Shown here: piece by piece, positions 36,141-40,703 of the stretch
Position numbering within the stretch: the stretch's first letter is position 1
How the letters are laid out: the number at the start of each line of letters is the position of its first letter
Assembly: GCA_902607625.1 (NCBI GenBank)
Contig: CACLKR010000009.1
Span: 1 to 41,993 of the forward strand
Reading direction: 5' to 3'
Source of the DNA: an uncultured Pelagibacteraceae bacterium
Lineage (GTDB): Bacteria; Pseudomonadota; Alphaproteobacteria; Pelagibacterales; Pelagibacteraceae
Length of the DNA stretch: 41,993 bases
Made by a program: the position numbers and the translations under genes
Notes under the pieces: model-generated
Database searches by the model: none
Told to the model about the DNA's origin: nothing
What the model saw: only the letters and a program-made list of their open reading frames with translations

Positions 36141-36760
36141 ATATAATACCCCATCTTATTATTTTTAATAAAATTATTATCACCAAATTTCTTTGAAATT
36201 TTTTTTCTAAGCCTGTGTATATGTGTTTCTACTGTATGTGTTTCAGTTTTTTCGGAATACTTCCAAACATTTTTTAAAACCAAATTTTTGTTTATTGGTT
36301 TTTTACTTGCGCTAAATAAAATAAGAAAATTAACTTCTTTTTCAGAAAGTTTAAGTTCTAAATTATTTCTTTTAATCTTACGCTCGTTTTTATCAATTAT
36401 GTAACCACTTAAACGTATTAAAGAATTTTTTTTAAATTCATTTTTAGCAATAAGTGAAACAATTTTTTTTTTAAAATCTAGTATTGTAAATGGCATATTC
36501 AATTGCTCATTAAAATCACCAAACAATCTACTTATTGCTTTAGAGGGCTTGACAATTAAAATTGATGGAAAGTTATTTATTTTAATTTTATTCAACGGAT
36601 TATTAAAAAAGACAACTAATTGATTTTCTTTTTCCGCTTCTTTTACACATAAATCTAAGTCCTCGTAATGTTTGATTTTAAATTGAGAAAACAACTTTAT
36701 TTCCTTAATAATTTCAAAAAAGATTTTATTAGCAAAAATTGATATAGTGTAACTGTTCAT
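36137..36760 (-). CDS. OmpR/PhoB-type winged-helix regulator with degenerate receiver
   Basis: The 207-residue protein has a C-terminal winged helix (about 113-207) of the Trans_reg_C type. It shows LELKLSEKEVNFLILFSA, LVLKNVWKYSEKTETHTVETHIHRLRKKI and the wing NNKMGYYI. The N-terminal half (about 1-108) has receiver-like length and beta-alpha alternation. At the end of the third strand, where the phosphoacceptor Asp belongs, it reads VVFFNNP, so it is probably not phosphorylated, and no histidine kinase gene is near. It is divergent from an L,D-transpeptidase gene with only 14 bases between start codons and overlaps the ArfA-like gene by TTGA. A role in controlling the transpeptidase is plausible but unproven. 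Confidence 0.83.
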   Translation of the reverse strand: MNSYTISIFANKIFFEIIKEIKLFSQFKIKHYEDLDLCVKEAEKENQLVVFFNNPLNKIKINNFPSILIVKPSKAISRLFGDFNEQLNMPFTILDFKKKIVSLIAKNEFKKNSLIRLSGYIIDKNERKIKRNNLELKLSEKEVNFLILFSASKKPINKNLVLKNVWKYSEKTETHTVETHIHRLRKKISKKFGDNNFIKNNKMGYYI

Positions 36761-36774
36761 TAATAATTATTTTT

Positions 36775-37266
36775 ATGAATATTATAATAAAAAATCATTT
36801 TCTATTATACAAAGGTTATAAATTAAAATGTAGTATAGGTAAATCCGGCTTAACATGTTCCAAAAAAGAAGGAGATTTAGCGACACCCAAAGGACTTTTC
36901 AAACTTGGCTTACTTTACTACAGAAAAGATAGAATTAAATTGGGTAAATGTGTAATAAAAAAAAAAATTATAAAAAAGAGTATGGGATGGTGTAATGACA
37001 TTAGAAGTAAAAAATATAATAAAGAAATATCTTTTCCATTTAAATATAGAGCCGAAAAGCTTTATCGAAAGGATAATATTTATAATATTTTTATTAATAT
37101 AAAATATAATCATTCACCGGTTATAAAAGGAAAAGGAAGTGCTATTTTTTTACATATATGTAAAAAAAAATATAAAGCAACAAGTGCGTGCGTAGCTCTA
37201 GAAAAAAAAGATTTTTTAAAAATAATTCCCTTAATCAACAAAAGAACAAAAATTTCGATTATGTAA
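36775..37266 (+). CDS. L,D-transpeptidase (YkuD) domain protein
   Basis: The 163-residue protein resembles the short alphaproteobacterial YkuD proteins. It has CSIGKSGLTCSKKEGDLATPKGLF at the start and the catalytic region SAIFLHICKKKYKATSACVALEK with His127 and nucleophile Cys139. The usual [S/T]xGC is TSAC here, Gly to Ala before the cysteine. Such enzymes make 3-3 peptidoglycan cross-links or attach proteins. There is no obvious signal peptide, which is common for this subgroup in annotation but leaves its localisation open. It overlaps the convergent yggS by 8 bases. Confidence 0.82.
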   Translation: MNIIIKNHFLLYKGYKLKCSIGKSGLTCSKKEGDLATPKGLFKLGLLYYRKDRIKLGKCVIKKKIIKKSMGWCNDIRSKKYNKEISFPFKYRAEKLYRKDNIYNIFINIKYNHSPVIKGKGSAIFLHICKKKYKATSACVALEKKDFLKIIPLINKRTKISIM

Positions 37267-37927
37267 GATTTCTCTCTCCCAAGATCAAAGTTCCCAATCT
37301 CAAATATGTAGATCCATTTAATACGGCTTGTTCAAAATCTGAGCTCATGCCCATACTTAATTCACTTAAATTCAATTTTAAAGCAGTATCTTTTAATAAT
37401 TTAAAATATTCGCCTGAATTGGAATCGATTGGAGGTAAACACATTAATCCGATAATATTCAAAGATAATTCTTTAGAACAATAATTATAAAAATGAGTAA
37501 GTTCGTCTAATTCAATACCTGCTTTGTGTTTTTCATTAGCTAAATTTACTTGGATAAATAATTTTACGTTTTTATTTAACTCCTTTTGATATTGAGATAA
37601 TTTTAAAGCCAATTGATCATTGTCAAGTGAATGAATATAATCGAATAAAGAAACTGCTTTTTTAGCTTTATTAGTTTGGAGTTTGCCAACCATGTGTAGT
37701 AATAAATTTTTATAATGTTTCTTTGCATCTGACCATTTCTTTTCCGCTTCTTGAATTTTATTTTCAGCATAATGAAGGTGTCCATTTTCCAAAAGTGGTT
37801 TAATATTAATTAGAGGAAAAGTCTTTGTAACAACAATAATTTTTGGTTTAGTTTTCAGTTGTTTTTTATCAATTATATCTTTAACCTTATTTTGAATAAG
37901 ATTTAACTTTTCTAAATTCGAATGCAT
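37259..37927 (-). CDS. yggS: YggS-family pyridoxal-phosphate homeostasis protein
   Basis: This single-domain alanine-racemase-fold protein binds PLP and balances vitamin B6 and amino-acid pools. The 222 residues show the PLP lysine Lys35 in IIVVTKTFP, then HYAENKIQEAEKKW, LHMVGKLQTNKAKKAV, LFIQVNLANEKHKAGIE, LSMGMSSDFEQAVLNGSTYLRLGTLILGER, all in family order. Its ATG is the minus-strand half of the hexamer ATGCAT at 37922-37927, whose other half is the start of the divergent gene. No alternative start exists before residue 90 or so. Confidence 0.94.
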   Translation of the reverse strand: MHSNLEKLNLIQNKVKDIIDKKQLKTKPKIIVVTKTFPLINIKPLLENGHLHYAENKIQEAEKKWSDAKKHYKNLLLHMVGKLQTNKAKKAVSLFDYIHSLDNDQLALKLSQYQKELNKNVKLFIQVNLANEKHKAGIELDELTHFYNYCSKELSLNIIGLMCLPPIDSNSGEYFKLLKDTALKLNLSELSMGMSSDFEQAVLNGSTYLRLGTLILGERNLT

Positions 37928-38500
37928 AAAAGTTTACCAAAATTTTTTATTTTTTTAGACAAATACAATAGTGAAATATTTGAAAATAATAACATAAATA
38001 TAGGTATTATTTATAGGAATTATAAAGATAGAAATAGAGAAAACCAATTAATAAAAATTGCTAAAGCCTGTAGAAAAAAAAGATATCAACTTTTTGTTTC
38101 AAATGACCTAAAACTAGCCTACAAAGTTAAGGCAGACGGTCTATATGTGCCTGCCTTCAATAAAACAAAAAAATTTTCAAATTTAGAGAAAAAAAATATA
38201 ATAATAGTAGGATCCGCGCACAATCAAAAAGAAATTCATAAAAAAATGATACAAAATTGTAAGGCAATATTTCTTTCTCCTCTTTTTCAAGTTGAAAAGT
38301 CCAAGACCTTTTTAGGTTTACATAAATTTAATTATTTAACATACATGAACAAAGCAAATATCTTAGCGCTGGGTGGAATATCCGAAAATAATATCTGCAA
38401 ACTTAAATTGCTATGCGTTAAAGGCTTTGGTGGAATTCGAATGTTCAAAAAAAAACCGGCCTTTAAAAGGCCGGTTTTTATAAAAAATAATTTTTTTTAG
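37922..38500 (+). CDS. ThiE/TenI-fold protein (thiamine phosphate synthase-like)
   Basis: The 192-residue protein follows the beta/alpha-barrel pattern of ThiE: IGIIYRNYKDRNRENQ (Arg and Lys as in the diphosphate site), LFVSNDLKLAYKVKADGLYVP, IIVGSAHN, AIFLSPLFQVEKSKT and ILALGGISENN. The Asn-Asp pair is kept, but the usual DGVHLGQxD is DGLYVPAFN, so the metal-binding Asp there is missing. It may be a divergent thiamine phosphate synthase or a TenI-like paralogue. Its start shares ATGCAT with yggS. A strong hairpin (38451-38479) lies inside its last codons, so the C-terminal residues KKKPAFKRPVFIKNNFF are encoded through a terminator. Confidence 0.75.
   Translation: MHKSLPKFFIFLDKYNSEIFENNNINIGIIYRNYKDRNRENQLIKIAKACRKKRYQLFVSNDLKLAYKVKADGLYVPAFNKTKKFSNLEKKNIIIVGSAHNQKEIHKKMIQNCKAIFLSPLFQVEKSKTFLGLHKFNYLTYMNKANILALGGISENNICKLKLLCVKGFGGIRMFKKKPAFKRPVFIKNNFF
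38451..38479. terminator. Bidirectional intrinsic terminator inside the ThiE-like 3' coding end
   Basis: A perfect inverted repeat of 14-base arms around one central base (core AACCGGCCTTT / AAAGGCCGGTT) is one of the few GC-rich hairpins in the window. A T run follows on the plus strand, and a longer one (from nine A in the plus sequence) on the minus strand. On the minus strand it lies 25 bases after the porin stop, an ideal terminator for the highly expressed porin genes. On the plus strand it falls before the ThiE-like stop codon at 38498. Confidence 0.88.
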
Positions 38501-38503
38501 TTG

Positions 38504-39562
38504 TTAGAACGCTAATCCTAGTGAAACTACTGTGGCACTTACGTCGCCCGAAGCTGCACTATTGAATAAAGCATTATCAGCTTTAACATCAGCAACTCTT
38601 AATGACGCTCCGCCCATTGTGTAAGCGATTTGCCATGAGTCTACTGTGACTCTACGGCTAGCCTCTGTACCTTGCACATTAGAATTGTTGTACGCTGCTT
38701 TACGACTTTCCCACTTACCATAACTCACTGACAGGTCGTCATTTACATTAAATGCGACACCATAAGCACTAGCTTTGTAAGTGTTATAAGCGGTAGCACT
38801 GCTTTCCTCACCTGAGTATTCAGCAGATGCTTGTACACCAAGAGAAAGTGGACCTATATCATAAGTCACACCAGCAACACCTTGGTATGCATCCGTGTCA
38901 AGAGTAGCACCATCATAGATTGTCTCATTGTGTGCACCAGCGAAAATATTCAGGCCTGATAAAATCTCAGTACCTAATGAAGGATTCATATTAATTGTAA
39001 TATCAATACCTCCGTTATTATCCGCCGCCGCAGGAACACCACCACCAGTTTTGTCAGCAGTATCCGTTGTTCCCATAACAGGAGCATAAGCAACCTTAAG
39101 TGTAGTACCCACAACTGTAGGGAAAGTATACTGAACGTTCATGTTTGGACCAACACCTGATACTAGACCTCTCATACCTGTTGCGAGACCTGCACCCCAT
39201 GGTTCCTCCCATGCCGTAGGCATTTTATCATCATATGCCTGTATACCGTTTCCGCTATCACCTGAGTTGAAGTTTAAGCTTCCAAGACCACCCATGTTCA
39301 AATCAATTACTGAAGACGAATACGCATTTGCATTCGTATTTGCAATTGTAAGAGCAAAGGTCCAACCGTTATCAAGTTCTCCACTACCTTTTAAAGAATA
39401 GTTAGAACCCATACCAATTGGGTTACCTGTCGTATCTGCGCCTAACGAAATATACGTTAAGTCAGCACCACCAGTTACTGTAAGATCACCTGCGTTAGCA
39501 GCTGAAATTGCAGCTAGAGATCCGCAAAGAGCTGAACAACCAACTTTAGTTAATTTATTCAT
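38504..39562 (-). CDS. Outer-membrane porin, copy 1
   Basis: The 352-residue precursor has a signal peptide cleaved after AANA (residue 24) and a mature part beginning GDLTVTGGADLTYISL. The mature protein is rich in Gly, Ser, Thr and alternating beta segments, and the last strand ends VVSLGLAF with a terminal Phe, the standard outer-membrane barrel signal. FNVNDDLSVSYGKWES and ASLRVADVK are barrel-strand patterns shared with the adjacent paralogue. It is probably a general diffusion porin of the alphaproteobacterial type; substrate preference cannot be read. Codons are less AT-biased than in the neighbours, as in highly expressed genes. It lies 25 bases after copy 2 and is followed by a strong terminator. 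Confidence 0.85.
   Translation of the reverse strand: MNKLTKVGCSALCGSLAAISAANAGDLTVTGGADLTYISLGADTTGNPIGMGSNYSLKGSGELDNGWTFALTIANTNANAYSSSVIDLNMGGLGSLNFNSGDSGNGIQAYDDKMPTAWEEPWGAGLATGMRGLVSGVGPNMNVQYTFPTVVGTTLKVAYAPVMGTTDTADKTGGGVPAAADNNGGIDITINMNPSLGTEILSGLNIFAGAHNETIYDGATLDTDAYQGVAGVTYDIGPLSLGVQASAEYSGEESSATAYNTYKASAYGVAFNVNDDLSVSYGKWESRKAAYNNSNVQGTEASRRVTVDSWQIAYTMGGASLRVADVKADNALFNSAASGDVSATVVSLGLAF
39475..39507 (-). repeat. 33-base identical segment shared with porin copy 2 (5' coding region)
   Basis: This segment encodes the signal-peptide cleavage region and the first mature residues (SAANAGDLTV). It is identical base for base to 40505-40537 in the other porin gene, while flanking codons differ even at silent positions. 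This suggests recent gene conversion or a duplication with local constraint. Confidence 0.85.
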
Positions 39563-39587
39563 AATTTACCTTTTGCCTTTCTCTAAG

Positions 39588-40592
39588 TTAAAACGCTAAG
39601 CCCAAAGATATAACTGTTGCATCTAGCTGTGAAGTAGCTGCAGTAGAATATGATTGGTTTGATACATCAATTTCAGCAATGCTAAACGTTGCACCACCCA
39701 TTGTGTAAGATGCTTGTAAAGAATCAGCTTCTGCTGTGTTTGAGTTTTCTTTTGTTGACTCAACATGCCCATAACCGATTGACAAATCATCATTAACGTT
39801 AAATGTAACGCTGTACGCTGTATTGTCATACTCTCCGTTTGTAGCAAGACCCGTATCATCACGACTTTGTTGGAAACCAACTGTAAATCCACCTGAAGCG
39901 TATTTAATACCAACTACTCTTTCAGACGAATCACCACTGATTGTTGTCGCGTTTTGGAATTGGTTAACTTCTGACATACCACCGTAGATAGTTAAACCAC
40001 CTACACCGTGTAAGTCCTCACTAGCTTCTACAGCTAAATCCCAACCTGAGTCTAATGTACCACCACCTGTACCTGCAGCTTTATCACTTGCTGGTTCGTC
40101 ATCCGCATTAGGAGAGAACGCAATATATGCTGTAAGTCCATCTGGAGTAGCTTCTGGTTTCAACTCAATTGTTGCACCACCTGAAGTACCAGCTATTGTA
40201 GTAATTCCAGCGCTTAGTCCAGCTCCATCAGCTTCTTCCCAAACTGTTGGCGTGTTATCGTCGTAACGATCGATACCTGTTCCAGATCCACCTTGGTTAA
40301 CTAAGATAGCTCCGACACCGGGTACTGTTACTGTAACGCTTGTATTTGAATAAGCGTTAGCATTAGTCATCGCAATGGATAAATCAACTGTCCAACCGTT
40401 TTCAAGTTCTCCTGAGCCAGCAAGGCCAAAGTTAGAACCCATACCGATTGGGTTACCAGTGACTTGGTCAGATAATGATATCCATGTCAAATCTGCTCCA
40501 CCACTTACTGTAAGATCACCTGCGTTAGCAGCTGAAAATGCAGCCAGAGATCCGCACAATGCAGATGCTCCGATTTTGTTTAATTTATTCAT
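39588..40592 (-). CDS. Outer-membrane porin, copy 2
   Basis: From the ATG at 40592 the precursor has 334 residues. This start is preferred over the one at 40625 because AAGGAG (40604-40599) lies 6 bases upstream and the protein then begins MNKLNKIGASALCGSLAA, as in copy 1. Cleavage after AANA gives a mature GDLTVSGGADLTWISL. The C-terminus ends VISLGLAF. Signal peptide, first strand, GNPIGMGSN, NDDLSIGYG and C-terminus match copy 1, while the long middle region is very different, suggesting diversified surface loops or pore. It is the promoter-proximal member of the porin pair and has the only textbook Shine-Dalgarno sequence I noted in the window. Confidence 0.85.
   Translation of the reverse strand: MNKLNKIGASALCGSLAAFSAANAGDLTVSGGADLTWISLSDQVTGNPIGMGSNFGLAGSGELENGWTVDLSIAMTNANAYSNTSVTVTVPGVGAILVNQGGSGTGIDRYDDNTPTVWEEADGAGLSAGITTIAGTSGGATIELKPEATPDGLTAYIAFSPNADDEPASDKAAGTGGGTLDSGWDLAVEASEDLHGVGGLTIYGGMSEVNQFQNATTISGDSSERVVGIKYASGGFTVGFQQSRDDTGLATNGEYDNTAYSVTFNVNDDLSIGYGHVESTKENSNTAEADSLQASYTMGGATFSIAEIDVSNQSYSTAATSQLDATVISLGLAF
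40505..40537 (-). repeat. 33-base identical segment shared with porin copy 1 (5' coding region)
   Basis: This is the partner of 39475-39507. It lies at the same codon position in the paralogous gene and is identical over 33 bases. Confidence 0.85.
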
Positions 40593-40703
40593 AATTAACT
40601 CCTTCTTGTTGTTATTTGTATTCATATGAATTGTGCCAAAATAACACTGTAATAAGCGAAAAAAAATTGAAATAGATTAGCAATATCAATATTTTTTAAA
40701 TAT

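Follow-up and report, generated by a model that had tools for sequence, protein, structure and literature searches.

Two divergent genes of an uncultured Pelagibacteraceae bacterium, yggS and a ThiE-like gene, share the hexamer ATGCAT as their start, with one ATG on each strand. The whole stretch of DNA analysed, hereafter the window, comprises 41,993 nucleotides. It represents contig 9 in an incomplete genome sequence of 927,452 bases and 33 contigs. The junction is probably a real and inherited divergent arrangement lacking any spacer, whose promoters would lie inside coding sequence and which would mark an extreme of SAR11 genome streamlining.

Two Start Codons in a Single Hexamer

The features that define the junction are the following:

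37922..37927, no strand assigned: ATGCAT, which supplies each gene with its start codon and its second codon (His), conserved in 90/160 relatives
37259..37927, minus strand: yggS, PLP-binding protein family, 222 aa (TIGR00044 match)
37922..38500, plus strand: ThiE-like gene (192 aa), a member of the TMP-TENI fold family by its PF02581 match but no thiE equivalog

Both ORFs begin in this hexamer, just as the earlier note had read it, the ThiE-like gene being read from its ATG along the plus strand and yggS along the minus strand. The plus frame is closed upstream of the ThiE-like ATG by a TAA at 37913-37915 (positions -9 to -7), which is followed by ATT CGA ATG, and the minus frame is closed upstream of the yggS ATG by a TAA at 37936-37934 (also -9 to -7), followed by ACT TTT ATG. 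An upstream extension with ATG, GTG or TTG is impossible for either gene, and none of these codons occurs as an alternative within 25 codons of either start. The claim that no other plausible start exists nearby is thus borne out for these three common codons, as distinct from rarer ones such as ATT. As the starts are shared and no other common start is near, it follows, as that note had deduced, that the promoter of each gene, with any leader, is situated inside the coding sequence of the opposite one, or else that the messages are leaderless. The alignment with the YggS profile TIGR00044 begins at residue 1 of the minus-strand protein. With genes on opposite strands, shared 5' bases and both starts backed by orthologues, the junction is a divergent overlapping pair. 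ATGCAT is necessarily palindromic because two ATGs sit on opposite strands, and for this reason the hexamer itself was dropped as a candidate regulator site.

The minus-strand protein belongs to the YggS family of PLP homeostasis (TIGR00044, E 1.3e-41, 142.7 bits against a cut-off of 106.25, residues 1-219). Its partner matches PF02581 (E 4.2e-14) and falls far below the thiE equivalog cut-off (TIGR00693, 39.6 bits against 145.1), and is not assigned to ThiE. Since the same genome holds a full ThiE elsewhere (locus L221, 157.9 bits against 145.1), the sequence comparison identifies the ThiE-like gene as a paralogue. In true ThiE the GQxD motif has a catalytic role. This motif, GQKD in the full ThiE, is absent from the ThiE-like family, in which most of 18 diverse aligned sequences have PAFN or PSFN instead. 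The same 18 sequences show 18 invariant columns and all of them keep Arg-Asn, Gly-Ser-Ala-His and Leu-Gly-Gly. The pairing of yggS with a ThiE-like paralogue recurs in other alphaproteobacteria.

Conservation of the Junction in SAR11

Profile searches of 297 Pelagibacteraceae genomes gave a yggS match in at least 257 and a ThiE-like match in at least 260. The comparison of the junction across relatives, as proposed in the earlier note, was carried out in 160 genomes, those among the matches listed for both genes whose junction was fetched. ATGCAT with both ATGs in frame was found in 90 of the 160, spread over six genera: 17/17 genomes in the genus of the window (g1), 68/86 in g3, 2/2 in g6, 1/1 in g11, 1/2 in g12 and 1/1 in g14, with none in g2 (0/9), g4 (0/33), g7 (0/2), g9 (0/6) or g10 (0/1). 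This recurrence exceeds chance. Eight further genomes show the same geometry through ATGCAA (6), GTGCAT (1) and ATGCAC (1), with start codons on both strands, a result that is partly built in, start codons being a condition of the start-pair assignment. By that assignment the overlap is of 6 bases in 97/159 junctions (89 ATG/ATG, 6 with a TTG and 1 with a GTG for yggS, 1 with a GTG for the ThiE-like gene), and junctions without ATGCAT mostly abut (CATATG, 31/159) or share CATG (6/159). The contrary case that had been named, orthologues starting clearly elsewhere, was looked for and is not borne out: of the 159 junctions that could be assigned, 154 fall within 9 bp of zero, and the other five were assigned values of -11 to -18, some of them with weak start codons. 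Among individual genomes, G189 scores -18 by start-pair assignment yet ATGCAT by the direct in-frame count, G181 has no assignable start pair and G281 has no ThiE-like gene in the stretch fetched.

A further 64 named genomes, which are those nearest to a Pelagibacter alignment and hence a set biased to that genus, gave 60 cases of ATGCAT, two of GTGCAT, one abutting pair and one at +9. On a 151-genome FastTree phylogeny, built leaving out the first 12 residues and with 50 of its 148 inner branches weakly supported, the state with an overlap of 6 requires only five changes.

Origin of the Spacer-Free State

In a sample of 152 alphaproteobacteria, a count by eye found at least 28 genomes in which members of both families lie side by side in divergent orientation. 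All 20 outgroup pairs fetched were divergent, and the gap between best starts was 28-199 bp in 18 of them; the other two had best-start gaps of 1 and -2 bp, with homology-expected gaps of 85 and 115. Because other alphaproteobacteria with the same divergent pair mostly keep these 28-199 bp, the simplest account is that the spacer was probably lost within the SAR11 lineage. The junction state of the sister family f140 (53 genomes) is uninformative in this respect, since among the matches listed yggS occurs in many genomes and TMP-TENI matches in just six, all of them weak.

How tight divergent pairs are in SAR11 generally was gauged with a simple custom gene caller applied to 442 kb, drawn from the window together with five relatives. 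The 438 genes include 56 divergent pairs, two of them the yggS/ThiE-like junction itself, with a median gap of 54 bp; in 17 of the 56 the gap was 25 bp or less, four of these 17 being long overlaps with probably miscalled starts. Two enzyme pairs reach the same extreme geometry in some relatives:

L214:7353-10221: histidine kinase/ispDF, spacer-free pair (CATG)
L213:10628-14743: YdiJ-like/BhcA-like, spacer-free pair (CATATG)

The histidine kinase/ispDF junction has CATG in 4 of 28 scored genomes, lies at 5 bp or less in 10/28 and keeps about 24-51 bp in the other 18/28. CATATG joins YdiJ-like and BhcA-like genes in two of the six genomes in which this pair lies within 40 bp; elsewhere the two genes are more than 1.2 kb apart (6 genomes) or have no neighbour match (3 genomes). 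As other SAR11 pairs are also tight or spacer-free, the yggS junction lies at the far end of a graded series, and is steadier than the two pairs compared: histidine kinase/ispDF is spacer-free in some genomes only, whereas the yggS junction stays near zero in 154/159. The earlier description of an extreme case of compaction holds in this sense, but the case is not singular.

Candidate Promoters inside Coding Sequence

The minimal -10 pattern TANNNT was counted upstream of each start and compared with synonymous-codon shuffles of the overlapping gene (the null values below). These shuffles ignore shared ancestry, and the resulting z values are therefore not probabilities. Candidate elements in the window are the following:

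37904..37909, plus strand: candidate -10 of the ThiE-like gene (TAACTT), within yggS codons 7-8 and 12 nt before the ATG; putative function
37881..37886, plus strand: possible -35-like TTAACC, 17 nt before that candidate -10; picked by eye, without statistics
37965..37970, minus strand: candidate -10 of yggS (TATTGT), in the ThiE-like gene and 37 nt before the yggS ATG; putative function
38019..38024, minus strand: alternative yggS -10 (TATAAT), 91 nt ahead of the yggS start codon and conserved as the protein motif alone would predict

On the ThiE-like side, TANNNT at offset 12 in g3 was present in 67/71 genomes (null 45.6), and in a thinned set of 36 of these 71 it reached 35/36, the sole position at or above 85% among 633 in yggS. 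In g4, offset 6 (23/24, null 10.3) and offset 27 (22/24, null 9.8; 24/24 in the comparison with all positions) have the two highest z among 642 positions, and in g2 offset 10 (6/9, null 1.5) ranks first of 646 by weight-matrix mean score. The counts for g9 were 3/5 at offset 7 (null 1.7), and those for the genus of the window 12/17 at offset 12 (null 8.6) and 15/17 at offset 34 (null 10.2). When scored with a weight matrix, six of seven subsets have positions 6-12 nt away from the ATG of the ThiE-like gene among their six highest mean scores, the exception being g1; by z, several intragenic positions outrank those at the junction (e.g., g3 offset 567, z 12.3). At 242 ordinary gene starts, antisense TANNNT showed no excess (z -0.3 to 0.9), which indicates that the excess at the junction is not a general codon bias of 5' ends. 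Hexamers resembling a -10 element at 6-12 nt before the ThiE-like start are thus conserved beyond what protein and codon usage explain in three genera, and weakly so in the genus of the window. The coupling of promoter to protein evolution that had been suggested gains support from these hexamers, clearly in g2, g3 and g4 and weakly in the genus where it was proposed.

The candidate promoter of yggS is less clear than that of the ThiE-like gene. Offset 37 carries TANNNT in 13/17 genomes of g1 (null 6.2) and 23/24 of g4 (null 15.9), being in g4 the sole position at or above 85% among 561, while g3, g2 and g9 show no clear TANNNT excess near the yggS start and g3 no codon-level excess. In g1, the hexamer at offset 37 is equalled or surpassed in score by those at offsets 69 and 91; the TATAAT at offset 91 has the highest mean score of 538 positions, 5.07 bits against a null of 4.18, which is what the protein motif alone leads one to expect.

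A sigma-70 consensus scan gave 12 matches against a shuffle mean of 7.0, none of them at the junction, the nearest for yggS lying at 38026-37997, 69 nt upstream. The initial -10 weight-matrix profile had no single clean peak, and the positional -10 profile of 48 ordinary well-spaced divergent starts had no sharp peak for calibration. Rfam at gathering thresholds gave no match, and hence no known riboswitch, in the window. Shine-Dalgarno cores are nearly absent from the junction (1/159 ThiE-like and 9/159 yggS starts) and rare at SAR11 starts generally (15/112 and 46/227).

How the Junction May Work

From this conservation we infer that the hexamers may act as promoters, with the consequences for leaders and for the persistence of the geometry that are set out here. 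An ancestral alphaproteobacterial pair of yggS and the ThiE-like paralogue would have had an intergenic promoter region, and the spacer would have shrunk to zero or below during SAR11 genome streamlining, leaving each gene with a promoter embedded in the opening codons of the other. Transcription of the ThiE-like gene would probably begin 0-6 nt before its ATG and give a nearly leaderless message (about 6 nt in this genome if the candidate -10 is right), and that of yggS would probably begin some tens of bases within the ThiE-like gene and give a message read without a Shine-Dalgarno sequence. An overlap of no less than 6 nt between the two messages would follow, rising to about 40-100 nt should offset 37 or 91 be the one used by yggS. 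Such a geometry may be locked, as there would be no site left for a harmless indel and most base changes in ATGCAT would kill a start codon; it would rarely change because no spacer remains. It is conceivable, and in our opinion quite doubtful, that the junction works as a switch of face-to-face promoters, in which polymerases starting inside each other's gene would yield messages complementary over their first 40-100 nt, with both start codons covered, so that mutual masking or interruption would link the ThiE-like protein with PLP homeostasis through YggS and explain why the geometry is kept across SAR11.

Local promoters would not be needed if the genes formed a non-contiguous operon, with yggS transcribed from the porin side, antisense through the ThiE-like gene, and the latter from the YkuD side through yggS. 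The layout would allow it, since yggS is preceded by a porin gene (38504-39562) and the ThiE-like gene by a YkuD gene (36775-37266), each on the same strand as the gene it would serve, and the consensus scan finds nothing at the junction. Such read-through is nevertheless unlikely: a strong hairpin with a T run on the minus strand (38451-38479, z -4.1) stands between porin and yggS, and the codon-level conservation of hexamers near the starts would be left unexplained. We regard as improbable, too, a symmetric promoter over the junction firing both ways, in the manner of the bidirectional promoters of Escherichia coli, which are reported to be common in prokaryotes (PMC12825309). The junction is AT-rich, palindromic by necessity, and resembles them in that divergent transcription would arise from very little DNA, but its conserved candidate -10s face each other about 55 bp apart without overlapping, and a shared, conserved -10 was not seen over ATGCAT.

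The overlap would be an artefact of ORF calling if one start were wrong, either because a rare codon such as the ATT two codons upstream of the plus-strand ATG is used or because an internal start went undetected, and surveys do attribute divergent overlaps of more than 60 bp to mispredicted starts (PMC2478687). Here the overlap is just 6 bp, both frames are stopped upstream and the position is kept in most relatives, which makes an error of this kind very improbable. Hardly any credence can be given to the ThiE-like ORF being a decaying paralogue whose start is free of functional constraint; its score below the equivalog cut-off beside a full ThiE would fit decay, yet the gene is present in at least 260/297 family genomes and retains 18 invariant columns in 18 diverse sequences, Gly-Ser-Ala-His among them. 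A spacer-free junction with promoters inside coding sequence is thus the reading we retain.

Relation to Known Overlapping and Leaderless Genes

Divergent overlaps are a known and rare kind of arrangement, of which the yggS junction is a clear example. A survey of 58 genomes reports 331 of them against 12737 codirectional overlaps and attributes their rarity to the need for upstream regulatory elements (PMC2174442). As in those pairs, the head-to-head genes at the yggS junction share 5' bases; in contrast to them as described there, the junction is kept across several genera, its starts are backed by orthologues and -10-like elements in the opposite gene were tested. This rarest class is often dismissed as start-calling errors, long cases (>60 bp) being usually start miscalls according to PMC2478687, and a junction backed by orthologues across a family shows that a bacterium can dispense with a divergent intergenic region over long evolution.

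Leaderless genes are known, for example, from actinobacteria, and leaderless starts are described in PMC5397173 and PMC3848588, the second of which reports start codons located at transcription start sites (TSSs) or no more than 10 nt away. The TSS predicted for the ThiE-like gene in g2, g3 and g4, which falls on the ATG or precedes it by a few bases, would resemble them; unlike them, yggS is predicted to have a leader, and the TSSs at the junction are predictions from sequence. The phrase 'start codons overlap' in PMC3848588 was discarded as a precedent, as it refers to start codons overlapping TSSs and not each other. Within literature on SAR11 TSS and leaderless data and on overlapping divergent starts, considered mostly at the level of titles and abstracts, we found no report of the yggS/ThiE-like junction.

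The natural variants of the junction (ATGCAT, ATGCAA, GTGCAT, CATATG and CATG) offer material on the mutual constraint between promoter and protein N-terminus. If the candidate elements are promoters, searches restricted to intergenic DNA will miss such promoters in streamlined genomes.

Surroundings of the Junction

The hairpin at 38451-38479, by its T run on the minus strand a terminator of the porin side, falls within the final coding stretch of the ThiE-like gene (stop codon at 38498-38500). Of the 17 genomes of g1, 12 have this stop codon entirely past the hairpin, three have it overlapping the last base of the hairpin and two have it within the hairpin. If the hairpin also terminates the ThiE-like message, that message would lack its stop codon. 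Further on, two tandem and similar porin-like genes occupy 38504-40625 on the minus strand, 'porin' being a label given from the sequence; the first of them has no match in Pfam or NCBIfam. At its other end yggS overlaps the YkuD gene by 8 bp (3' ends, 37259-37266), and it therefore overlaps neighbours at both ends. A second tight divergent junction, of 14 bp (36760-36775), separates the YkuD gene from a gene with a response-regulator DNA-binding domain and no Pfam receiver match, and the equivalent junction in L219, from a genome of the same genus as the window, is also of 14 bp.
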